From the NCBI RefSeq assembly GCF_002973595.1, contig NZ_PVEO01000008.1, positions 1 through 64,000 on the forward strand: DNA of 64,000 bases. Direction: 5' to 3'. The first letter of the stretch is position 1, and each line of letters begins with the position of its first letter. Under the pieces are notes generated by a model. That model was given only the letters and a program-made list of their open reading frames with translations. It made no database searches and was not told the origin of the DNA. The position numbers and the translations under genes are program-made. This DNA is from Jejuia pallidilutea. GTDB lineage: Bacteria > Bacteroidota > Bacteroidia > Flavobacteriales > Flavobacteriaceae. Shown one piece after another: positions 156 to 48,986 of the stretch.

Positions 156-205
156 TTTTATTTTTTCTAAATGGCTTTGTTTGATGGCGTTACGTTTTGC
201 AGTTT

Positions 206-345
206 CGTTAACGTTTATGTGTAAGAATAGTTGCGGGATTGTATGCGAGGATTTTCCGAAGGAAAATCAGAAGCTAGCAAAGGAGCAACTAACTTTGGTT
301 TAGCTAAAACTAGCAATTTTTTTATACGGTGTTGCCATTTCGTTG
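206..345. repeat. Left repeat (L1) of accessory cassette 1
   Basis: A complex repeat downstream of the small gene at 386-742. It starts with the palindrome CGTTAACG (206-213) followed by AGAATAGTTG. It includes a perfect hairpin GATTTTCC-gaa-GGAAAATC (250-268), the block AGCAACTA (284-291), two TAGC-rich blocks, and TTATACGGTGTTGCC (322-336). GAGGATTTTC, AGCAACTA and TTATA...TGTTG recur in the same order in the repeat at 21741-21793. I recognise this type of sequence as dispersed in flavobacterial genomes, but I cannot quantify that here. Confidence 0.6.
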
Positions 346-385
346 TTTTTTATTATTTAGAAATTAAGTCCGAATTCTGAGCTTT

Positions 386-742
386 TTATTCTTCTAAATA
401 TTCCTTCAGTTCTTCTTTTAACTTATGATATGTTTTCAGTTTACGGGTTATAATGTCTTTTTCAGATAAAGCACTTCTCATTGAAATAGGACTGTCAAAA
501 TTATCAGATATTATTTCTATTGAGATTTTATCCTTTTCGTTTAATTTACTTTGAAACCAATTAGCCCTTTCTTTAGTATCAGAATTTAAACCTGCAATCG
601 AGATATTCAATTCTTCTGATTCGTCATTTTCTCGTCTAATTGAATCTAAAATACAAGTCAATACTGAATTTTTATTTTCAAATCCCGCTCGACAGATTTT
701 TTTGTCATTAATAGTAATTTGAAATCCAAATATTTTTTTCAT
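386..742 (-). CDS. Hypothetical protein carried on an accessory cassette
   Basis: A 118-residue protein when started at the ATG at 742 (MKKIFGFQIT). An upstream ATG at 784 would add 14 residues, but that start lies next to the cassette repeat and the added residues look non-native. No signal peptide or membrane segment is visible. The protein is charged, with a Lys/Glu-rich C-terminus (LKTYHKLKEELKEYLEE) predicted to be helical. I do not recognise the family. The gene stands alone between two imperfect repeats (206-345 and 792-848) beside an IS end, so it is probably horizontally exchanged cargo. Its function is unknown; accessory single-gene cassettes often carry toxins, antitoxins or immunity proteins, but nothing here shows that. 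Confidence 0.65.
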   Translation of the reverse strand: MKKIFGFQITINDKKICRAGFENKNSVLTCILDSIRRENDESEELNISIAGLNSDTKERANWFQSKLNEKDKISIEIISDNFDSPISMRSALSEKDIITRKLKTYHKLKEELKEYLEE

Positions 743-791
743 TTTTTTTTTAGGTTGTGAGTGCGTTCCACCAATGAATGGCAACTTTCGC

Positions 792-848
792 GGATATCTG
801 TCGTTTTAATGACTTATATCCGACGTTAACGAAGATAGTTGAAAATTT
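792..848. repeat. Right repeat (R1) of accessory cassette 1
   Basis: About 57 bp containing GTCGTTTTAATGACTTAT, then CGTTAACG (824-831) and AAGATAGTTGAAAATTT. It aligns along its whole length, with few mismatches, to 23532-23590, which sits in the equivalent position 5' of the serine-hydrolase gene. CGTTAACG followed by A(G)A-TAGTTG also recurs at the left edge of this cassette (206-213), so the unit is bounded by short direct repeats. Confidence 0.65.
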
Positions 849-856
849 CTACAAAG

Positions 857-2104
857 TCAAGTTGTTTTTTCTTTAAGAGCAGTCAATTCCGCAATTTTAC
901 AAATCACTTCAGTAGCTTTTATCATACTTTCTACAGGAACATATTCATAACGCCCATGAAAGTTATGGCCGCCAGCAAAAATATTAGGACATGGCAACCC
1001 CATATAACTTAATTGCGAGCCGTCTGTACCACCTCTAATAGCCTTAATTAGTGGCTCAATGTTTAGTTGTTTCATAGCTTCTTCTGCAATATCAACTATA
1101 TGCATAACAGGCTCTATTTTTTCGCGCATGTTATAGTACTGATCTTTAATTTCAGTAGTAATTACTTCGCGTTCATATTGTGAATTCAGCTCGTTAGTTA
1201 GTTTTTGCATTACCTCTTTTCGGGCTTCAAAATGGCCTTTATCATGGTCTCTAATTATGTATTGTAGTTTGGTTTGTTCTACATCACCATTAATAGTATG
1301 TAAATGAAAAAAACCTTGATACTCTTCAGTATGCTCTGGAGTTTCAATTCTTGGTAAGGAATTAATAAATTCTGTAGCGATATACATAGAGTTTATCATT
1401 TTTCCTTTGGCATACCCAGGATGTACAATTTTGCCTTTTATTGTTACAACAGCACTAGCGGCATTAAAATTTTCATATTCTAATTCGCCTATTTGGCTTC
1501 CGTCCATAGTATAAGCCCAATCTGCTGCAAATTTCTCAACATCAAATTTATGAGCGCCCCTACCAATTTCTTCATCGGGCGTAAAGCCCACCCTTATTTT
1601 TCCGTGTTTAATTTCTGGGTGATTTATTAAATATTCCATAGCAGAAATAATCTCGCAAATACCAGCTTTATCATCGGCTCCAAGTAGCGTTGTACCATCT
1701 GTGGTAATTAAGGTTTGGCCTATATACTGTTTTAAATCCTCAAAATAGTCAGGTGATAAAATAATATTTTCTTCTTTATTTAAAACGATATCACCTCCAT
1801 GATAATTTTCAATAATTTGAGGCTTTACGTTAGCTCCTGTAAAATCTGGTGAGGTATCAAAATGCGAAATAAAACCAATAGTTGGAACATTATACGATAC
1901 ATTGCTAGGTAGGGTTGCCATAATATAAGCATTATCATCTATTGTAACATCCTGCATGCCAATTGCCTTTAACTCTTCTGCTAGTTTATTGGCTAAATCC
2001 CATTGCTTTTTAGTACTTGGGGTGGTATCTGAATTTGGATCAGATTGAGTATCAATAGTAACGTAGCTAGTAAATCGTTTTATGATGTGTTCTTTTGAAA
2101 TCAT
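857..2104 (-). CDS. pepT: Peptidase T (tripeptide aminopeptidase)
   Basis: This 415-residue M20-family metallopeptidase removes the N-terminal residue from tripeptides in the cytoplasm. Visible hallmarks are the metal motif SHFDTSPD (His81, Asp83), the Asp in LGADDKAG, the catalytic Glu pair in [14 protein letters not shown], and a C-terminal IRGGTDGS block with [10 protein letters not shown] supplying the last metal His. Length matches PepT (about 410). The ATG at 2104 has no competitor. The gene is monocistronic and divergent from pyrD. Its 3' end is 8 bp from the cassette repeat R1, so the accessory unit was inserted directly behind it. Confidence 0.95.
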
Positions 2105-13217: not shown

Positions 13218-15593
13218 ATGAAAGTGTTCAGAACTATTAATTTCAGTCTTTTATGTTTTTTGTGTTTCGTTAGTTTAAAGGGATTATCGCAGGAAGTTAC
13301 AATAAGTGGTACAGTTGTAGAAGAGGTTTCTGGTCAGCCATTGGCCTACGCAACCGTGGTAATTGCAGATAAAGCAACAAAACAATCTATTACTGGAGCA
13401 ATGACTTTAGAAGACGGTACTTTTAAGGTAACTACCGAAGCTTCAAATTTTTTCATAGAAGTTAGCTTTATTGGCTTTCAAACCAAGACAATTACAACGT
13501 ATAGTATTAATAACGAAAATGTAGATTTAGGTATAATTACACTTACTGAAGATGCAGAACAGTTAGGAGAGGTTTTGGTAGAGGCCGAAGTGTCATCATC
13601 TCAATTTAAGCTAGATAAACGTGTATTTAATATAGGTAAAGACTTGAGTAGTACGGGTGCTAGTGCTTTAGAGGTTTTAAATAATGTGCCGTCTGTAAAT
13701 GTAGATATTGAAGGTGCTATAAGTTTACGGGGAAGTACGGGGGTACAGGTTTTAATTAATGGCAAACCGTCTATTTTAACTGAAGACGGTGGTGCTTTGG
13801 GCAGTATTACTGCCGATATGATAGATAGAATTGAAGTAATTACAAACCCTTCTGCTAAATATGATGCTGAAGGTACATCTGGAATTATAAACATAGTGAT
13901 AAAAAAAGACGAACGTAAAGGCATTAACGGTGCATTTAGCTTAAATACCGGTATACCAGACAATAATAGTTTTGGTTTAAGTTTAAATAAACGCTCTGAA
14001 AAGTTTAATTTATTTACCCAACTTGGTTTTGGAAGAAGGGTGTATCCCCGAGATTCTGAAAATATAAATGAAGACTTAGATACAGGTACATCTATTGTGA
14101 GCGTAGGTGAGGATTTAAGAGTTGAAAAATTCTATAATATTACCTTAGGTACAGACTATTATATAAATCCTACAAGCGTAATAACATTATCTGGAAATTT
14201 TGCTTACGAAATAGAAGATCAACCATCAGATATTAATTTTAAAGCTATTGATGCGAGTAATAATGTAACGTCTGAGTGGAACCGTTCTGAAACTACAGAA
14301 GCAACAAACCCAAAATGGCAATACGAATTAGTTTATAAGAAGGATTTTGCGGATCATGAAGACCATGATTTATTGTTAAGTGCTACAGGAAACTCTTTTG
14401 GGAAAGACTTAGAATCGTTATTTCAAGATACTACAATCTCTGGAACAGATAGAGATAATACCCAAAACACTAGAACAGATTACTCTGATAATACCTATAC
14501 CTTTAAGCTAGATTATACTAAACCGTTTTCTGAGATTTGGACTATGGAAACAGGCGCGCAATACGTAATTAACGATATTGGTAATGATTTTGAAGTTCAA
14601 AATTTAGTAGATGGCGTTTTTGAAACAGATTTGGGATTAACCAATAATTTTGAGTTCGACCAAAAAGTATTGGGCGCTTATTTAATTGGAGGATACGAAT
14701 ATGAAAAATGGGGCGTAAAAGGTGGATTACGATTAGAACAAACCGATTTAACTACCACACTTGTAACCACAAACGAATCTAACAACCAAAACTATACTAA
14801 TTTGTTTCCTAGTATTCATACGTCCTACAAGTTATCTAACGCTATATCGTTACAAGCAGGCTATTCAGCACGAATAAACAGGCCAGGGATGCGCGAGTTG
14901 AATCCGTTTTTTAATATTCGTAACAATTTTAATATTCGCCAAGGTAACCCAAACCTTAAGCCAGAGTTTACAGATTCTTATGAGCTTACCAGCATCTTTG
15001 ATATTGGAAAAACCGATTTAAATTTTGGTATTTTTCACCGCTTTACTACAGATGTTATAGAACGTATTTCGGTATTTGAGGATAACGTTAATATTAGTAT
15101 GCCAGAAAATATAGGAACTAATAGCACTATAGGTGTTGAGTTTAATACAAAGTATAGTCCTGCCAAATGGTTAACATTTAATGTTGATTTTAATTATAAT
15201 CAATTTAATAGAAAGGGAACGTTTGAGGCTACTATTTTTGACTTTAATGGTGATGAATGGAGTTCTAAACTTATGGCAAAATTTAAGCTGCCAGCAGATA
15301 TAGATTTAGAAGCGGTAGGAAATCACAGATCAAGAGTTAAAACCGTACAAGGTATAAGAAGTGCTAATACCTTTTTAGATATTGGTGTTCGTAAAAAAAT
15401 CCTTAAAGATAAAGGCGTTATTAATTTGAGCATACGAGATGTATTTAAATCTAGGTTTTTTGAGAATTTTATTGCACAAGGCAACTCAGAAGCTTACAGT
15501 TGGAGCAGGCGTGGACGTTTTGTAGCTATTGGATTTAGTTATGGCTTTGGTAAGGGAGAAGCCATGGAGTATTCTGGAGGAAAACGCCGATAA
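13218..15593 (+). CDS. TonB-dependent receptor-like outer-membrane beta-barrel protein (CarboxypepD_reg plus OMP_b-brl_3 type)
   Basis: A 791-residue outer-membrane protein started at 13218 (MKVFRTINFSLLCFLCF, a signal peptide ending KGLSQ); 18 upstream in-frame codons are rejected because they precede the signal peptide. Residues about 25-115 form a carboxypeptidase-regulatory-like (CNA-B) domain. Next comes a plug-like region (ALEVLNNVPSVNVDIEG, VQVLINGKPS, IDRIEVITNPSAKYDAEG), then a long barrel. This is the outer-membrane beta-barrel family common in Bacteroidota as a target of nearby LytTR systems. It is transcribed divergently from the kinase operon and is presumably controlled by it. 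Substrate unknown. Its stop is 4 bp from the convergent DUF192 gene. Confidence 0.88.
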   Translation: MKVFRTINFSLLCFLCFVSLKGLSQEVTISGTVVEEVSGQPLAYATVVIADKATKQSITGAMTLEDGTFKVTTEASNFFIEVSFIGFQTKTITTYSINNENVDLGIITLTEDAEQLGEVLVEAEVSSSQFKLDKRVFNIGKDLSSTGASALEVLNNVPSVNVDIEGAISLRGSTGVQVLINGKPSILTEDGGALGSITADMIDRIEVITNPSAKYDAEGTSGIINIVIKKDERKGINGAFSLNTGIPDNNSFGLSLNKRSEKFNLFTQLGFGRRVYPRDSENINEDLDTGTSIVSVGEDLRVEKFYNITLGTDYYINPTSVITLSGNFAYEIEDQPSDINFKAIDASNNVTSEWNRSETTEATNPKWQYELVYKKDFADHEDHDLLLSATGNSFGKDLESLFQDTTISGTDRDNTQNTRTDYSDNTYTFKLDYTKPFSEIWTMETGAQYVINDIGNDFEVQNLVDGVFETDLGLTNNFEFDQKVLGAYLIGGYEYEKWGVKGGLRLEQTDLTTTLVTTNESNNQNYTNLFPSIHTSYKLSNAISLQAGYSARINRPGMRELNPFFNIRNNFNIRQGNPNLKPEFTDSYELTSIFDIGKTDLNFGIFHRFTTDVIERISVFEDNVNISMPENIGTNSTIGVEFNTKYSPAKWLTFNVDFNYNQFNRKGTFEATIFDFNGDEWSSKLMAKFKLPADIDLEAVGNHRSRVKTVQGIRSANTFLDIGVRKKILKDKGVINLSIRDVFKSRFFENFIAQGNSEAYSWSRRGRFVAIGFSYGFGKGEAMEYSGGKRR

Positions 15594-21334: not shown

Positions 21335-21483
21335 GGTAGTAAAATTATTAAAGATGTAAAAGTATTAAAATATTTGGGCGTTACCACAAGGGTTGGGTTT
21401 TATTCATGCATTTCTATTTTAAATTATTGAATTCATGAACATAAATGTTTCGCTATATTTTTTTAATAAGTTATTGCGCTATT

Positions 21484-21554
21484 GTTATTGCGAACGCAGT
21501 GAAGCAATCTCCTTATTAGAAGTAGATTACTTCGTGGTACCTCCTTGTAATGAC
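21484..21554. repeat. REP-like imperfect palindrome
   Basis: Arms GTTATTGCGAACGCAGTGAA..GCAATCT and AGATTACTTCGTGG..CTCCTTGTAATGAC are imperfect inverted copies. Similar extragenic palindromes are scattered in flavobacterial genomes. A half copy (GATTCTACGTTGCCTTGTAA and following TGAC) lies at 59468-59493. It is in the gene-free stretch 21335-21801, which also holds the repeat fragment at 21577-21604 and the cassette repeat L2. Confidence 0.6.
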
Positions 21555-21576
21555 GCCGAATTTGTAAGAAACTATT

Positions 21577-21604
21577 AAAAAGAATGCCGCTACAATCCCT
21601 AACC
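21577..21604. repeat. Half copy of the hairpin repeat found at 48815-48944
   Basis: AAAAAGAATGCCGCTACAAT followed by CCCTAACC resembles the 3' arm at 48920-48944 (AAAAGGATGCCGTTGCAATC). No matching 5' arm is seen nearby, so this is probably a decayed remnant. Confidence 0.45.
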
Positions 21605-21687
21605 TTTAGTTTGCATTTAATATAAAAGTTATCTTTCTTCAAAAGAAAACAGAGGTGAACTATATCCCTAGCTAAGTATAGGCTTAG

Positions 21688-21793
21688 TTACGTTTTTTAA
21701 ACACTAATTATAGCAAATAAATCACAGATAGAAAGTCTGTGAGGATTTTCAGTAGTAGACGGGAACAAGCAACTACTTATATTCATTGTTGGC
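21688..21793. repeat. Left repeat (L2) of accessory cassette 2
   Basis: Begins with a TTACGTTTTTTAAACACTAA-like block (21688-21719) resembling the CAACGTTAAACGAAATTAGC edge at the far side of the cassette. It then has a small hairpin ACAGA-N7-TCTGT, GAGGATTTTC (21741-21750), AGCAACTA (21768-21775) and TTATATTCATTGTTGGC. GAGGATTTTC, AGCAACTA and the TTATA...GTTG block occur in the same order in L1 at 247-336. Confidence 0.5.
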
Positions 21794-21801
21794 GGTAGTA
21801 A

Positions 21802-23451
21802 TTATAATTTTTCAAATTCTAATCTCATAATTTTCATTGAAATAATCTTTCCGTTCTTATTTCGTATGAATTGAATTGGGTAGTTGGGAATACTAAATAA
21901 ATTTTTAGATAATGCTTCCAATTCAACGTTATATGCTCCTTTTCCGTAATGAAAGTGCAATTTACCATCTTCAAATTTAATTTCTTTAGTTACTTGTAAG
22001 CTCTTATTTAAATAAATGCCTGCAAGTTCTTTTAATTCTAATTCTGTATGCTTGTAAGGTTCAAGTTCTTTGAACAACCAAGGTTTTTCATTTTCGTTTG
22101 CATAAAACTTGTATTGTTTGTTATTGGTTTTAACATCAAATTCCATAATTATTCCGTCCATCAAAAACTTTTGATTACCAATTGGCTCTAATTTCCCTAT
22201 TTCTTCTCCATTTGCCGTTGTTAGTACTAATATTTTTTTCTTTAGTTTTATTATTCCAGTTTTTATATCTTCATATTCATTACCAAGAAAGATGTAATTC
22301 CCCTCATATTTTTTAAGGGCATCATTAGTCAGTTTAATAATTACATTTTCTTTCTTTTGATTATTGTTAACTTGCTTGTTATTTGGAATATATAAATCTA
22401 CTAGTTGAAAAAAGCGTTCTTCGAAATCTTCTTCAAAAGTGTTTTGTGTAGTAAAAAAGGCCATATCTAAATCTGGAAAATATAAGTATTTTGAAACGAA
22501 CCCGCCCATAATCATACCATCAAATCCCATGGCGTTATAACCGTTATGTGTTTCAAATTCAACGCCTAACCCAAAGTCGATTACAGTTCCATCATTTAGT
22601 TTTGCTTTGGTTTGCATTTTTTTCCACAATTTGGGTGTACCAATAGTGGCATTTCGAATGCCTTGATGCCATTTAAACATATCTCTCGCAGTAGTCATAA
22701 TTTGACCATCACCATTGTAAATGGCAGAGTGCAAATGCATTTTGTAATAAGCCCCATCATCTTCAATATATCCTATAGCTCTATTTTTTATTATGTCATA
22801 CGTTCTGTTTTTCTTAATCGTATTTTCCATTTTTAATGGCGAAAAAATATGGTCTTGCAGAAACGCTGTAAAAGATTTTTCTGATACTTTTTCAATAATA
22901 TTAGCAAGCAAGATGTAGTTTGCGTTTGTATATTCAAAATATTCACCTGGTTTAAAGTTGAGTTCTTTTAAATTTACTATGATATTGCTAACTCTTGATT
23001 GCGTAAGTAAGTCATTAAAAGATAAATCTGCTAAATAAAAGTATGGGTCAACTTCAGGTATCCCGCTTGTTTGATTTAACAATTGTTCTATTGTTGGGTC
23101 ACCCTTTTTATACCGGGGAAGATTATCGATGTATTTGTAAGCAGGCTCTTCAATGGATAATTTTCCTTCATTTTCTAATAACAAAATGGCTGCTGCCGTA
23201 AATTGCTTAGCAATTGAACCAATATCGAATACGGTTTCATTTGTTATTGGAACATTATAATCAAGATTTGCAATACCATATTGTTTTTCAAGTATAATTT
23301 CATCTCCTTTAAATACAGCTATTGAAAATCCGGGTTGATTACTGTTTACTTGATATAGACTATCTATCTTTGAATCAATATTTTGAGAAGTTGCTAATTT
23401 TGGAATTAGAAGTAAAAAGATTATGAGTATTTTAAACTGTTTTTTATTCAT
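21802..23451 (-). CDS. Secreted serine hydrolase (beta-lactamase/PBP4*-like, S12 family)
   Basis: A 549-residue exported enzyme. After a signal peptide (about 1-22, ending KLATSQ) comes a class C beta-lactamase-like domain (about 25-350). Its catalytic SxxK motif is SIAK (Ser79, Lys82), its YxN motif is YTN (Tyr174, Asn176), and a TSGIPE block is also typical. About 180 C-terminal residues form a beta-rich region (VIIKLTNDALKKYEGNY, ELKELAGIYLNKS) like the lipocalin-type tails of esterase or peptidase relatives. Possible activities are D-amino peptidase, esterase or D,D-carboxypeptidase; resistance is not implied. It is alone between cassette repeats and interrupts the recF-DUF721 neighbourhood. 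Confidence 0.85.
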   Translation of the reverse strand: MNKKQFKILIIFLLLIPKLATSQNIDSKIDSLYQVNSNQPGFSIAVFKGDEIILEKQYGIANLDYNVPITNETVFDIGSIAKQFTAAAILLLENEGKLSIEEPAYKYIDNLPRYKKGDPTIEQLLNQTSGIPEVDPYFYLADLSFNDLLTQSRVSNIIVNLKELNFKPGEYFEYTNANYILLANIIEKVSEKSFTAFLQDHIFSPLKMENTIKKNRTYDIIKNRAIGYIEDDGAYYKMHLHSAIYNGDGQIMTTARDMFKWHQGIRNATIGTPKLWKKMQTKAKLNDGTVIDFGLGVEFETHNGYNAMGFDGMIMGGFVSKYLYFPDLDMAFFTTQNTFEEDFEERFFQLVDLYIPNNKQVNNNQKKENVIIKLTNDALKKYEGNYIFLGNEYEDIKTGIIKLKKKILVLTTANGEEIGKLEPIGNQKFLMDGIIMEFDVKTNNKQYKFYANENEKPWLFKELEPYKHTELELKELAGIYLNKSLQVTKEIKFEDGKLHFHYGKGAYNVELEALSKNLFSIPNYPIQFIRNKNGKIISMKIMRLEFEKL

Positions 23452-23531
23452 AAATTTTGTTTTTCTTTCTCTAAAGACTCATTTAAGTTCTCATTGTTAC
23501 AGTTGAGTGAGTTTATTATGGCTAATATAGC

Positions 23532-23590
23532 AGATATGCGTCGTTTGAATGACTTATGCCCAACGTTAAACGAAATTAGCTGAAATTTTA
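23532..23590. repeat. Right repeat (R2) of accessory cassette 2
   Basis: Contains GTCGTTTGAATGACTTATGC, then CCAACGTTAAACGAAATTAG and CTGAAATTTT. It matches 792-848 along its length, including GTCGTTT-N-AATGACTTAT and ACGTTAA. In both cases the repeat lies just 5' of the cassette gene. Confidence 0.65.
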
Positions 23591-23619
23591 TACATAATTA
23601 AACAATAATGCGTAAAAAA

Positions 23620-23649: not shown

Positions 23650-24729
23650 TCACAATTTAAAAATCTCATAAGATTGATGCACTTGTTTTACAGCTTGTTC
23701 GGTTCTGTCAGCATGTGTATCGCTTATAAATAATTGTCCAAAATTCTCATCATCTACAAGTTTAATAATTTGCGCTACACGTTGTTCGTCCAGCTTATCA
23801 AAAATATCATCCAATAATAAAATAGGGTTAACGCCACTTTGCGACTTTATAAAATCAAATTGCGCCAATTTCAAAGCAATTAAAAACGATTTTTGTTGGC
23901 CTTGGCTTCCAAATTTCTTTATTGGGTGCTCTTCAATATTAAACACTAAATCGTCTTTGTGTATGCCAACGTTGGTGTATTGTAGCGCCTTATCCTTGTT
24001 AATATTTGCTTTTAATAAGGTAAGTAAATTAGCTTCGTATAAGTGGCTTTCGTAAACCAAATCTACCTGTTCGTTACCATTGCTAATAGCTTCGTACCTG
24101 CTTTTAAAAATAGGAATAAAGGCCTTTAAAAATGCATCTCGTTTTTCGTAAATTACAGTGCCATAATCCGTAAGTTGTTCGTTGTAAACCTCTAAGGTAT
24201 CTGCATTAAAGGTGTGGTTAAGCGCAAAATATTTTAATAGGGCATTGCGTTGCGCCAATACTTTATTGTAGTTAATTAATAGCGATAAGTAACTTTTATC
24301 GCTTTGCGAAATTACACTATCTATAAACTTACGCCGGGTACTGCTGCCCTCAATTATTAAATCTCTATCGGCAGGGGAAATTATCACCAAGGGTAAAAAA
24401 CCTATGTGTTCACTAAACTTTTCGTAAGCTTTACCGTTACGTTTAATTACTTTTTTTTGGCCACGTTTTAAACTTATCACAATTTTTTCGGGCTTATCTT
24501 CCTTTTCATAGTCGCCATTCACTACAAAAAAATCTTCATTGTGCTTAATATTTTGAAGCGCTACGGGGTTAAAATAACTTTTGCCAAACGATAAATGGTA
24601 AATGGCATCTAAAATATTGGTTTTTCCCACACCATTATTACCAACAAAACAATTAATCTTTTCGTTGAAATTAAAGGACCTACTTTCAAAATTTTTATAA
24701 TTAACTAACGAGAGCGATTTTAAAATCAT
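23650..24729 (-). CDS. recF: DNA replication and repair protein RecF
   Basis: A 359-residue SMC-like ABC ATPase that helps RecOR load RecA at single-strand gaps. Walker A is GNNGVGKTN (about 30-38), the ABC signature is in [11 protein letters not shown], and Walker B is [12 protein letters not shown]. Length is normal. The start [19 protein letters not shown] is the usual RecF N-terminus. It is divergent from the TPR protein gene with about 145 bp between them. Confidence 0.96.
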
Positions 24730-30474: not shown

Positions 30475-31500
30475 ATGAAAAAGCTAAAATTCTTTGATAA
30501 AATCCTTTGGTTGATCAATAGAATATTAGCTGTTCTTTTATTGCTCTCTTTTATACTGCCTTTTTTACCCCCAAAAACATTTTCAGTATTATCTGTATTA
30601 AGCTTGGGTGTTGCATTGTTAATTTTGGCTAACGTTTTGTTTTTTTTGTATTGGTTAATAAAACTTAAAAAACAATTTATACTATCACTGGTGGTTTTGG
30701 CTATAGGTTATTTTTCGTTTGGCTCGTTATATAAGTTTTCTTCATCTAAAAATATAGCGGCTAGTGGAAATTTTAAAGTAATGAATTACAACGTACGTTT
30801 GTTTAATCTTTATAAATGGATACCAGAAGATAGTATAGAAACTAAAATTGAAGATTTAATAAAAACCGAAGCTCCTGATATTTTAAGTTTGCAAGAATAT
30901 CATCCCCATAAAAATGTAGATTTATCTTTTTTTAAATATAAATTTGAAAAGCTATCGGGAAAAAAAACAAAATACGGGCAAGCTATTTTTTCAAATTTCC
31001 CCATTATAAACTCAGGATCTGTTGAGTTTCCAAACACATCAAACAATGCTATTTTTGTGGATGTAGTAATGCCTACTGATACTGTGCGCGTATATAATGT
31101 ACATTTAGAGTCTATGCGCATCAATACAAAAGTAGAGAGTTTAAAAAAGGAAAACTCCGAACGGCTTTTTAAGCGCATTGGCACCACCTTTAAAATGCAA
31201 CAGTTTCAATCTGAATTGTTTTTGATGCACAAAAACCAATGCAAATACAAAATGATTGTTTGTGGCGATTTTAACAATACGGCCTTTTCTTATGTATATA
31301 GAAAAATTAAAGGTGATTTAAATGATACATTTAAAAAAGCGGGTAATGGTTTTGGGCGCACTTACGATTTTAAATTTTTTCCTGTTAGAATCGACTTTAT
31401 TTTTGCAGATGATGCTTTTGCCGTAAACGGTTTTAAAGCGTATAATGAGCATTATTCTGATCATTACCCGATTATGTCTACGCTTAATTTAACGCCGTAA
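30475..31500 (+). CDS. Membrane-anchored endonuclease/exonuclease/phosphatase family protein
   Basis: A 341-residue protein. Three hydrophobic segments lie in the first ~90 residues; the EEP fold (about 100-340) follows. Catalytic motifs: MNYNVRLFN, LSLQEYHPH (metal-binding Glu), YNVHLES, VCGDFNNTAFS (Asp/Asn), and the C-terminal SDHYPI with the catalytic Asp-His. The family includes nucleases and sphingomyelinase- or phosphoinositide-phosphatase-like enzymes, and the sequence does not settle the substrate. The catalytic domain probably faces outward. It closes the mutL-rhomboid group; its stop is 3 bp from the convergent DUF6122 gene. Confidence 0.88.
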   Translation: MKKLKFFDKILWLINRILAVLLLLSFILPFLPPKTFSVLSVLSLGVALLILANVLFFLYWLIKLKKQFILSLVVLAIGYFSFGSLYKFSSSKNIAASGNFKVMNYNVRLFNLYKWIPEDSIETKIEDLIKTEAPDILSLQEYHPHKNVDLSFFKYKFEKLSGKKTKYGQAIFSNFPIINSGSVEFPNTSNNAIFVDVVMPTDTVRVYNVHLESMRINTKVESLKKENSERLFKRIGTTFKMQQFQSELFLMHKNQCKYKMIVCGDFNNTAFSYVYRKIKGDLNDTFKKAGNGFGRTYDFKFFPVRIDFIFADDAFAVNGFKAYNEHYSDHYPIMSTLNLTP

Positions 31501-31812: not shown

Positions 31813-32435
31813 TATCTAGGAGTTATAGTTTGAGATTCTAAATAATTTAGTGCATTAGGGCCTTCGTTAAATAGTAAATCTAAAATACTTAAATTAGGGA
31901 TGAATCCATGTTTATCATCAAAAACCTGAGTGTAGCTATCAAAGTTTTTGGGTGTTTCATTCTTGGCGTTTACCAGATATCTTAAGTCTGTTTTATCTAC
32001 TACTGCTTTTTTAAAAGATGTAGTTTTCGATGTTTCAATATCTAGCTGCAAACATTCACAAATTACATCAAAACATTTCAAATTAAAATCTAAAAGTAAC
32101 TCTGTATCTTCAAAAAAAAGTGGTTTTAATTCATCTTCATAGAACTCAAAAAAGGGAGATGTTCTATAAGCAGATTCCAAAGATTTCCAATGTTGCAATT
32201 GCCATTTTTCAGTATTAAAAATTTTTACATCTTTATATTTTTTTCGGTTTTTTTGAGAGAACACCACGGGTATATTTAGCAGCAACTTTCCGTTTGCACC
32301 ATAAATATAGGTGCGGTTTCTATATGTTTGTTTTACGTAGTTATCACCTAACTCCAAGGTTACGTTCTTCGCCTGTGCCAATGCCACAAAATGAGCTATA
32401 TTTGGGAAGTATGTTGGGTGTATAAGAATATTCAT
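31812..32435 (-). CDS. WbqC-family protein
   Basis: A 207-residue protein recognised from its WbqC-like N-terminus (HPTYFPNIAHFVALAQAKNV), YVKQTYRNRTYIYGANGKLLLNIPV, and the LESAYRTSPFFEFYEDEL block. Some members sit in O-antigen clusters. In Bacteroidota the gene usually lies beside signal peptidase, as here (126 bp downstream of lepB). The biochemical role is not established. Confidence 0.88.
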   Translation of the reverse strand: MNILIHPTYFPNIAHFVALAQAKNVTLELGDNYVKQTYRNRTYIYGANGKLLLNIPVVFSQKNRKKYKDVKIFNTEKWQLQHWKSLESAYRTSPFFEFYEDELKPLFFEDTELLLDFNLKCFDVICECLQLDIETSKTTSFKKAVVDKTDLRYLVNAKNETPKNFDSYTQVFDDKHGFIPNLSILDLLFNEGPNALNYLESQTITPR

Positions 32436-32561: not shown

Positions 32562-34148
32562 CTAGGCTTTTTGCTTTTTTCTTTTTCGCCATTGGTTAAA
32601 TCCAATCCATCCAAATAATACCACTAAAAACGGAATAAAGAAAGATGTAGCTTTACCGGTACCATGTACCGTTGTGAAAAAGCGTTCCCATCTTGGGTTT
32701 TTAATGCCATCCCAACTCATCCAAATAAATACTGCTTTTCCAAAAACGTGATTAAAAGGCACAAAACCCCAACGTCTGGCATCAATAGAGTTATGGCGGT
32801 TATCGCCCATCATCCAATAATAATCTTGCTTAAAGGTATAGGTATCGGTAACTTCTCCATTAATTAAAATTTGATTCCCTTGAACTTTTAAGGTGTTGCC
32901 TTCGTACTCGGTAATAACACGTTTGTAGAGCGGTAAAACATCTAAATTAATAGCTATAGTCGCATCTTTTTTAGGGATGTAAAGCGGACCAAAAAAGTCG
33001 ATATTCCAAGGATAATCAGGGTGATGTGGAAACACATCAGGGTCTGGTTGTCCTTTTTCTTGTATATTAATTTTAATATCGGCAACATTTGGATGGTTTT
33101 TAAACTTAGCTAAAGCTTCATCAGAAATTGCAGGGATATAGTAATTAGTATATTGCCTATTTGTTGGATAAACACCATCGGTTATATCGTATCTAGAGGC
33201 TAGATAATTAGGATTAAATTGATGGGTTTTGGGTGTTACGTTATAGCTAAATTGCAGTTGAGCTCTATCGGGCAGCTCATTTTTTTCGCCATTTATGTAT
33301 ACATAGCCGTTCCTAACCTCTAAAGAATCGCCCGGTAAACCTACGCAGCGTTTTACTAAATTGGTTTTCTTGTCTATAGGTTTATAGTAATTTCTGTCGG
33401 GCTTAAAAATATTCATATCTCTCAGTGTGTCGGCTGGTTGATTGAATACAACAATATCATTTCTTTTTATATTTTGAAATCCTGGTAAACGCATGTAGGG
33501 CAATTGCAATTTATTTACCCAAGAGCTTTTGCGTTTCTCGAAATTATCATTAAACGCATACGATTTAACATTTAATAAAGGAATGGTATCGTGAACCATA
33601 GGTGCAGCTACGGTCGTCATAGGTACTCTTGCACCATAATGGAATTTGCTTACAAATAGAAAATCGCCGACTAATAGGGATTTTTCTAGAGACGACGAAG
33701 GAATGGTAAATGGTTGCATAAAATAGGTATGCACAATAGTTGCTGCAACTATTGCAAATAGTATAGAGCTTGTCCACTCACCAGAGCCAGATTTTGGCAT
33801 TAAACTTCTGTTTTCAACGTAGGTTACATTTGCAACATAATTTAAATAATAATTATAAAAGCCTAGGGTAATTACAGCTAAAAATGTATCTAGATAAGTA
33901 TTTTTACCAAAACTTCTAGCAGTTTCTACCCAAACTACCATTAACATTATAAGGTTTACTATGGGTAAGAACAATAAAATAATCCACCACCAAGGGCGAT
34001 TAATAATTTTCATTAAAATAACCCCATTATAAACAGGTACAAAGGCTTCCCAAGGTTGTCTGCCAGCTTTTTGGTAGAGTTTCCATGTGCCCAATCCATG
34101 AATAACTTGTATAATTAGTAAAAAAATAAGCCACTGTGTAATAGTCAT
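32562..34148 (-). CDS. lepB: Signal peptidase I, extended Bacteroidota form
   Basis: Cleaves signal peptides from exported proteins at the inner membrane. At 528 residues it is about twice the E. coli domain core. The first ~115 residues are a multi-pass domain (KAGRQPWEAFVPVYNGVILMK, DUF5684-like). After a further membrane anchor, the catalytic part begins with IPSSSLEKSL, where Ser153 is the likely nucleophile. The catalytic Lys lies in LVKRCVGLPGD and the late motif is MMGDNRHNSIDARRWGFVP. A large insertion separates these blocks. It belongs to the cluster of dapB, DUF5683, parB and parA. Confidence 0.94.
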   Translation of the reverse strand: MTITQWLIFLLIIQVIHGLGTWKLYQKAGRQPWEAFVPVYNGVILMKIINRPWWWIILLFLPIVNLIMLMVVWVETARSFGKNTYLDTFLAVITLGFYNYYLNYVANVTYVENRSLMPKSGSGEWTSSILFAIVAATIVHTYFMQPFTIPSSSLEKSLLVGDFLFVSKFHYGARVPMTTVAAPMVHDTIPLLNVKSYAFNDNFEKRKSSWVNKLQLPYMRLPGFQNIKRNDIVVFNQPADTLRDMNIFKPDRNYYKPIDKKTNLVKRCVGLPGDSLEVRNGYVYINGEKNELPDRAQLQFSYNVTPKTHQFNPNYLASRYDITDGVYPTNRQYTNYYIPAISDEALAKFKNHPNVADIKINIQEKGQPDPDVFPHHPDYPWNIDFFGPLYIPKKDATIAINLDVLPLYKRVITEYEGNTLKVQGNQILINGEVTDTYTFKQDYYWMMGDNRHNSIDARRWGFVPFNHVFGKAVFIWMSWDGIKNPRWERFFTTVHGTGKATSFFIPFLVVLFGWIGFNQWRKRKKQKA

Positions 34149-48756: not shown

Positions 48757-48814
48757 GTATCAAAAATACTAAAAATTTGTACCCAATTGCAGTTGTATGT
48801 GTGCTAAAGTTTCT

Positions 48815-48944
48815 TCCTGCTTTCCACTATATCTTTTGTTTTTGGCATTACTGCTTAGGTAGGCGTTTATACCAATATATCATCCAACCTCATTATTTGG
48901 TCTCATTAATGCAAATAAACAAAAGGATGCCGTTGCAATCAGGA
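48815..48944. repeat. Large imperfect inverted-repeat (hairpin) element
   Basis: The 5' arm (48815-48838, starting TCCTG and ending TATCTTTTG) and 3' arm (48920-48944, starting CAAAAGGATGCCG and ending CAGGA) are imperfect inverted copies around an ~80-base centre. The outer TCCTG/CAGGA and the inner ATC(C)TTTTG/CAAAAGG(A)T match best. A half copy lies at 21577-21604. I recognise it as a repeat dispersed in flavobacterial genomes. An open frame across it is not a gene. Together with the hairpin at 48987-49017 this accounts for the 48757-49048 gap. Confidence 0.6.
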
Positions 48945-48986
48945 GTAGCTGCCAAATTCTGTGTCTTCTTACAATTATTATATTTA

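Follow-up and report, generated by a model that had tools for sequence, protein, structure and literature searches.

Two genes of Jejuia pallidilutea, both encoded on the minus strand, carry the same repeat on their 5' side, and the question is what this repeat does there and whether it moves with the genes. In the window (the whole stretch of DNA analysed, 64,000 nucleotides), the two copies lie about 22.7 kb apart in equal orientation relative to their gene, at the places where an earlier sequence-only reading had put them. The length of about 58 bp given in that reading was too short, as alignment with five more copies of the genome extends the repeat to about 79 bp (783-861 and 23524-23602). 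The pattern GTCGTTTNAATGACTTATNNCCNACGTTAA with up to three mismatches was found exactly twice in the window and not at all in 100 dinucleotide shuffles. Across the J. pallidilutea genome the same pattern and tolerance gave ten matches. Besides the two window copies there are five more good ones, one each on contigs C3, C6 and C9 and two on C5, and the remaining three cannot be aligned with these. Model R2 found 13 matches in this genome at E<=0.01. We hold it to be highly probable that a Bacteroidota integron system uses the repeat as a dedicated docking site, scattered over the chromosome, at which gene cassettes are taken in. The docking site with its filled and empty states, the junctions, the covariation of the hairpin, the turnover at orthologous places and the shared cassette pool were all read from sequence.

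The seven aligned copies define a unit of about 79 bp that consists of CTTGACTTTGTAaAAATTTtcaacTAacTTCGTTTAACG, a hairpin and (G/A)TT, and within it a TTGA...TAnnTTcG stretch is conserved. Bacteroidetes promoters are of a type with TTG and TAnnTTtG about 20 nt apart. In a set of 107 sites that includes the copies of J. pallidilutea itself, TTG was found in 99, TAnnTTnR in 99 and a spacer of 20 in 89, so that the first part of the repeat fits a Bacteroidetes-type promoter and would be expected to act as one. Docking site 1 (783..861, minus strand) reads TTGAC...TAtcTTCG in its promoter-like part, followed by the hairpin CGGATAT..GTC..GAC..ATATCCG and the crossover AAAG|TT at its end. Its start overlaps the stop codon of an M20 peptidase gene (857-2104). 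Model R1 recognises its hairpin as a short attC (781-832, E 1.2e-4), and several other copies of the docking-site hairpin score likewise under the attC model. Docking site 2 (23524..23602, minus strand) follows a RecF/SMC-type gene (23650-24729) and is partly decayed; by eye the agreement between cassette start and attC is weaker there, and no clear right arm was seen after the attC. The two neighbouring genes are called pepT and recF below. These names and DUF721 are working labels, and Pfam gave M20 peptidase and SMC_N for pepT and recF respectively.

The letters that the sequence-only reading found shared on the opposite sides of the two genes (GAGGATTTTC, AGCAACTA and TTATA...GTTG) are all part of one attC-type hairpin, at 208-338 and 21672-21795. 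The first attC (208..338, minus strand) scores 89.4 bits with model R1 (E 3.4e-20) and has a 93% identical counterpart on contig C3; the second (21672..21795, minus strand) scores 45.1 bits (E 6.3e-9). Cassette 1 (212..784, minus strand, 573 bp) starts with TTGCCATTC, the reverse complement of the left end of its own attC (GAAATGGCAA), contains one small gene and ends with the attC at ...AAACG|TT. The gene (386..742, minus strand) encodes about 118 aa from the ATG at 742, being listed as an open reading frame at 386-784 from a TTG, and Pfam gave no match for it at E<=0.001. Beyond the attC lies the displaced right arm of docking site 1 (200..211, minus strand), TTAACGAAAC, which is complementary to the left arm TTCGTTAAC. 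The limits of cassette 2 (21675..23525, minus strand) are approximate since its ends are partly decayed; its gene (21802..23451, minus strand) encodes a 549-aa protein of the beta-lactamase-fold family PF00144 with DUF3471.

In the J. pallidilutea genome the element at 208-338 has 20 matches, of which the small contigs C22, C24, C25 and C18 carry 12, and the attC profile found 57 sites in 18 stretches of the genome. Elsewhere in this genome the attC sites alternate with single genes, i.e. they form cassette arrays. A control of 176.7 kb of the same genome, made up of 30 Flavo-1 loci, the window and 20 kb beyond it, contained as its only attC the two after the docking sites, together with the match on docking site 1. 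The attC sites are conserved imperfect hairpins, for which RNAalifold on 33 sites gave 13 pairs, eight with compensatory changes, and paired cells made up 96.0% against 79.0% after shuffling (0/500 shuffles, 33 sites). A cassette start that is complementary to the cassette's own attC is a hallmark of integron cassettes. In the arrays, the start matched the left end of the cassette's own attC at 8.57 of 9 positions, compared with 5.08 of 9 for an attC that it merely abuts and 4.93 after shuffling (n=30). Because the starts match their own attC and not the abutted one, the arrays are built like those of integron cassettes. All 30 array cassette starts fit GTTR, and one of the 30 fits the R' consensus GTTRRRY.

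The same junctions were found at docking sites. We examined 100 docking sites from 11 genomes rich in sites, chosen from the best-scoring matches listed, and found an attC within 3.5 kb downstream in 69, with all 74 attC matches on the strand of the site. Forty further sites from two genomes comprised 24 filled, six empty and ten other sites, again with every attC (26/26) on the site's strand. The start of the docked cassette matched the left end of the next attC at 7.64 of 9 positions, compared with 4.40 (sd 0.17) after shuffling, for the 64 of 69 sites that were measurable; the motifs were not located in the other five. When the four filled sites of J. pallidilutea are added to the 69, the palindrome's right arm (TTAAACGAA, at most two mismatches) follows the first attC in 66 of the 73, compared with 9% at random. 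Empty sites, in which the right arm comes directly after the hairpin, account for 13 of the 107 (L168 only weakly so; L181 has another docking site right behind it). Both an attC within 3.5 kb and an intact right arm were missing at 22 of the 107 sites, one of which, C5b, does in fact have an attC.

Most filled sites hold a single cassette, two cassettes being found in three of the 69 (L226, L251 and L252). The longest open frame of the cassette lies on the site's strand in 64 of the 69 and starts there at a median of 29 nt past the site. Pfam matched eight of ten docked proteins (Fic, a caspase domain, fucosidase, beta-lactamase-fold and others), and PADLOC, run on ten docked proteins, matched four (SoFic, AriA/GajA-like, a nuclease-like domain and a type II methyltransferase). 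A homologue at E<=1e-10 among the array and recombinase loci sampled was found for 21 of the 73 docked cassettes. A docked gene of genome G175 shares 93.5% identity with a J. pallidilutea gene that follows an attC on contig C4, and one docked in G171 shares 83% identity with a cassette of the C18 array, also of J. pallidilutea. Docked and array cassettes are evidently drawn from a shared pool.

The behaviour of the repeat over time was read from orthologous places. Comparison of the upstream flanks of the 107 sites gave 26 orthologous pairs between genomes, of which seven were filled in both, ten were filled in one and empty in the other, seven were filled in one and unclear in the other, and two were without an attC. 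None of the 26 shares a cassette gene. The earlier proposal of a common mobilisation mechanism is supported in so far as one mechanism acts on many different single genes in flavobacteria, and a recombinase co-occurs with it. Since J. pallidilutea's own genus mostly lacks sites at pepT and recF (a docking site is present at each of these places in two of 12 genomes), occupancy was also compared in the genus of genome G044. Among 32 pairs in that genus, 17 were filled with different cassettes, one with the same, 11 were empty against filled, one was empty in both and two were others; six of the 32 are ambiguous, as their flank matches at tandem sites span 23-49 aa. The rarity of docking sites at pepT and recF in J. 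pallidilutea's own genus indicates that the sites themselves come and go.

Individual places illustrate this turnover. The recF site is filled in the window; G044, in which the same two genes flank it (protein identities 92% and 84%), has an intact empty palindrome with a perfect 19-bp outer stem (z -7.5); in G489, of the window's genus, another attC follows. At the pepT site, the small gene without a Pfam match in the window is replaced by a Fic gene in G044 and by another cassette in G501, and the site is empty in G500. The empty site on contig C9 of J. pallidilutea also forms the outer stem, with weaker overall folding (z -2.35), whereas this stem is no longer formed in the filled copy of the window. 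Tandem docking sites were also observed. The two on contig C5 (L012 7190-9518) have identical upstream flanks of about 120 bp, and G044 has three sites in a row (L177, L181 and L182). Duplication may be one way for new docking sites to arise.

These comparisons bear on the idea that the repeat is a junction travelling with its cassette, which did not survive them, as the repeat stays in place and is found empty or with other cassettes at orthologous places. The moving unit is instead the gene with its far-side attC, and the repeat is a fixed target left behind. In a related explanation gene and repeat would move together, the repeat being one end of an element of the transposon or MITE type. 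Its location on one side of unrelated genes would suit such an element, but the far side holds an attC and no second copy of the repeat, and we regard this explanation as very improbable. As a transposon or MITE end the repeat was rejected, given orthologous sites that are empty or hold other genes while the repeat remains; this rejection would fail only if every one of the empty sites had arisen by secondary deletion.

In the mechanism that we propose, a docking site would be composed of a promoter and a palindrome (TTCGTTTAAC - hairpin - GTTAAACGAA). Both arms would pair in the empty site, which would then fold like a short attC. A circular cassette with a folded attC would be recombined at the (G/A)|TT of the right arm in an empty site with paired arms. 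The inserted gene, with its start about 29 nt downstream of the site, would be placed under the site's promoter, and the right arm would come to lie past the attC, at the distal end of the cassette. With the site filled, the outer stem could no longer form and no further cassette would be accepted; this loss of the stem would explain the near-universal single cassette per filled site. We infer that folding works in this way as an on/off switch and as the mechanism of single occupancy. Docked cassettes would be supplied from the pool of arrays growing at an attI beside a recombinase gene.

The hairpin on which this mechanism depends shows covariation. In 101 distinct rows, aligned by fitting to the model, 151 cells were changed on both sides compared with 57 after shuffling (0/500). 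Covariation from the first seven repeat copies was uninformative, and RNAalifold on a plain alignment of the 107 docking sites gave no structure. Five sites (L188, L187, L195, L196 and L198) are about 103-106 nt long with some 23 extra bases in the hairpin loop, and the loop insert of L188 resembles a second small inverted repeat.

A conserved hairpin behind a promoter could also be an RNA element. The repeat might then provide a small RNA gene ending in Flavo-1 with its promoter and 5' leader, and cassettes would land there much as at an ordinary genomic attG. Flavo-1 does lie 46-76 nt downstream on the same strand in seven of ten empty sites scanned, four of them above the Rfam gathering score, and on the sense strand of the docking stem G-U cells (29) outnumber A-C cells (18). 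The corresponding counts for attC are 2 and 8, and these numbers are too few to decide between RNA and DNA. The position of the right arm just past the first attC in nearly all filled sites means that cassettes sit exactly in the palindrome, which speaks against this explanation, and the left outer arm extends into the -7 promoter box, so that the outer stem is not wholly RNA. In addition, the 30 Flavo-1 loci of J. pallidilutea have no docking site within 200 nt upstream and no attC. We consider the leader explanation rather unlikely. That the docking site is the 5' part of a small RNA gene may nevertheless hold, as this is compatible with the docking-site reading that we prefer.

Flavo-1 RNA (RF01705) has 32 matches in the J. 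pallidilutea genome at E<=0.01, for example at 48809-48950 of the window (minus strand). Flavo-1 as the carrier of the repeat was rejected on the 30 genomic loci without a docking site in the 200 nt upstream. A Flavo-1-like remnant after cassette 2 (21378..21606, minus strand) was identified by eye against the empty G044 site L183 and is not called by Rfam; in L183 itself Rfam calls Flavo-1 at 536-657 (E 6e-8). The presence of Flavo-1 downstream of empty docking sites may offer a lead to its role.

The docking-site reading requires a recombinase, and a candidate was found at the end of contig C11, where a 375-aa tyrosine recombinase is followed about 110 nt on, on the same strand, by the cassette start GTTGGCA. 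Homologues at E<=1e-60 occur in 104 of 199 Flavobacteriaceae genomes, and attC occurs in 102 of these 104 (Fisher p 3e-6). Among 80 named recombinase loci, which include Flaviramulus, Algibacter, Winogradskyella, Polaribacter, Tenacibaculum, Maribacter, Muricauda, Cellulophaga and Flavobacterium, 109 attC were found in 41 loci, while the stretch covered at the remaining 39 contained none. A total of 101 attC are on the strand of the recombinase, all downstream of it (36 loci), and eight are on the other strand. A stretch of the form TATAAn(1-3)(A/C)GTTR was present within 330 nt past the recombinase stop in 26 of 30 loci, with 0.5 expected after shuffling; lying before the first cassette, it is a plausible attI. 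We infer that this array-associated recombinase is also the catalyst at docking sites. The association of the two across genomes is modest (Fisher p 0.016), and no recombinase at E<=1e-60 was found in 18 of 54 genomes with docking sites, including the congener G132. G132 and G171 have many filled docking sites without a recombinase at this threshold; it may have been lost, have diverged or have been replaced.

The recombinase resembles the archaeal XerC-like protein 4a8e, XerA 5hxy and IntI4 2a3v, and lacks the additional domain of IntI, with residues 181-247 of IntI4 facing 24 residues. Forty-five Bacteroidota proteins have an R233-H322 spacing of 88-90 aa, compared with 131 in the IntI control L343 and 100 in the control L345; as L345 is itself short in this region, the additional domain alone does not separate the families cleanly. 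Against the cut-off of 265 bits for TIGR02249, the J. pallidilutea recombinase scores 201.6 and six Bacteroidota recombinases 191-207, whereas two IntI proteins from other phyla, run with hmmscan as positive controls, score 378 and 415. For NF040815, whose title includes 'integron integrase', L304 passes the cut-off and the J. pallidilutea recombinase is below it. In the recombinase tree the nearest neighbour of the two IntI controls is L340 (a Bacteroidota MAG), joined next by two other J. pallidilutea tyrosine recombinases, and the other Bacteroidota rows lie apart. Deep branches of this tree are poorly supported, and long branches come together in it. A shorter recombinase match, from residue 105, was observed in L326, L327 and L332 (Sphingobacterium, Empedobacter), where attC lie upstream on the opposite strand in a divergent layout like that of classical integrons.

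The N-terminal part of about 95 residues had no match in Pfam. Its structure (L054 1061-1351, minus strand, residues 1-97) was predicted with high confidence, and the best fold matches in the PDB are weak (YciH, XPB and the HARP domain of SMARCAL1, E 0.1-0.5), so that a HARP/XPB-like identity is suggestive only. XPB and HARP domains bind DNA junctions.

With these features at hand, an ordinary chromosomal integron can be weighed, in which a canonical IntI lies elsewhere or has since been lost and single cassettes have been stranded at secondary sites. The array anatomy, the attC hairpins, the G|TT crossover and the attI-like region all match such an integron, and IntI1 has recombined one attC of a Polaribacter phage according to excerpts of PMC9892861, a phage in which R1 finds four sites. 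TIGR02249 over its cut-off or at E<=1e-50 was, however, found in 0 of 199 family genomes, a search in which the control genomes also gave none, and the array-associated recombinase is under the cut-off and without the IntI additional domain. Moreover, cassettes land at a single conserved sequence that is repeated and bears a promoter. We find this explanation distinctly improbable.

The attC are widespread in the family, being found with covariance model R1 (E<=0.001) in 175 of 199 Flavobacteriaceae genomes drawn evenly from 198 genera. In the phylum Bacteroidota, attC were found in 69 of 296 genomes at E<=1e-6, including other families. Scoring covered the best 17 or 11 candidates of each genome, which makes the attC copy numbers minima. 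A profile scan of flavobacterial genomes, which had been suggested earlier as a check, found the docking site (model R2) in 54 of the 199 family genomes, mostly as scattered single sites with up to 34 in one genome; the enclosed genes are variable and mostly single, and a recombinase co-occurs in the modest link given above. All 54 genomes with docking sites have attC. The lytic Polaribacter phage P12002L (L346) has four attC-like sites by R1 (14501-14629, 31113-31315, 32219-32282 and 32793-32926), three of which, at 31-33 kb, are near methyltransferase genes. Cassettes with attC of this kind thus reach phages.

A broader picture, to which we give a little more credence than doubt, is that of a distributed integron. 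It would combine an array at attI with up to about 30 fixed, promoter-bearing slots that each take one cassette and are switched by a hairpin, and its recombinase would form a new class, with an N-terminal domain (perhaps HARP/XPB-like) that recognises folded DNA, the task of the additional domain in IntI. Such a system would be widespread in Flavobacteriaceae and would have been missed by IntI-based searches. If true, many cassettes would be expressed at once, beyond those near one array promoter. The abstract of PMC11023631 states that most cassettes of a large integron array are not expressed; if docking sites work as proposed, this limit would be met by spreading expression slots over the chromosome. 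They would also make the turnover of accessory genes, some of them defence-like, testable in a dominant marine bacterial group.

Bacteroidota are counted among the integron-bearing phyla in the portions consulted of three reviews (PMC8618304, PMC9668308 and PMC2426708). The relevant extract of the IntegronFinder 2.0 paper (PMC9024848) mentions earlier In0 elements and one complete Bacteroidetes integron, in Salinibacter, and a Tenacibaculum genome paper that used this program lists no integrons in its corresponding extract (PMC10013915). A Tenacibaculum contig (L277) is among our named loci with a recombinase and an array. As far as these extracts go, published counts of Bacteroidota integrons are tiny, in contrast to attC of one kind in most genomes of the family. 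Open-licence full-text literature on integrons and Flavo-1 held no description of a docking-site cassette system among the matches listed. The suggestion in the sequence-only reading of a possibly undescribed cassette system thus stands in so far as no description was found, and falls in so far as the system is a kind of integron and not unrelated to known systems. It is an integron by its cassette logic and not by its integrase domain, and dedicated docking sites were not found described.

Among known systems, the chromosomal (sedentary) integron is like the present one in having arrays whose single-gene cassettes all point one way, attC hairpins, complementarity between cassette start and R'', G|TT crossover, and a recombinase gene with a conserved attI-like stretch ahead of the first cassette. 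The flavobacterial recombinase differs from that of chromosomal integrons in having an N-terminal domain of about 95 residues and no IntI additional domain, and its gene and the array are oriented alike. Further differences are cassette starts of GTTR that are rarely GTTRRRY, and the many promoter-bearing docking sites per genome. XerA and archaeal XerC-like recombinases (PDB 5hxy, 4a8e) are closest to the recombinase body in sequence and fold, and the N-terminal extension is outside the matched part. These recombinases are not known to us to move gene cassettes. Flavo-1 (RF01705) lies just downstream of most empty docking sites scanned, and 30 of its loci in J. pallidilutea have no docking site within 200 nt upstream.

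The reverse-orientation integrons of Spirochaetota, as excerpted from PMC9668308, likewise have an integrase orientation off the common layout; they are IntI-type, whereas the flavobacterial recombinase is below the IntI family cut-off. A survey of tyrosine recombinases remarks, in the accessible part of PMC8138268, that conservation of the integron-specific insertion is incomplete within its integron-like subgroup, and this is the nearest hint found. The quoted results of PMC9892861 report that IntI1 inserted P12002L_attC2 of the Polaribacter phage into attI1, P12002L_attC1 being the one failure of six, and the assay on P12002L_attC2 supports the recombinability of attC in the flavobacterial host group. 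Gene-less promoter cassettes, which lie within integron arrays according to an excerpt of PMC12444791, resemble docking sites in bringing a promoter to cassettes; a docking site differs in staying in place and in having no cassette start of its own. The attG sites of Loot et al. 2024, as cited in passages of PMC12901181 and PMC12444791, are divergent from classical att sites and broadly distributed. Docking sites take cassettes at (G/A)|TT, and several copies score as a short attC. They are like attG in being genomic acceptors of cassettes outside the array and, unlike attG as described in those passages, they are one conserved repeat with a promoter and a palindrome that lies at orthologous places in different genomes.
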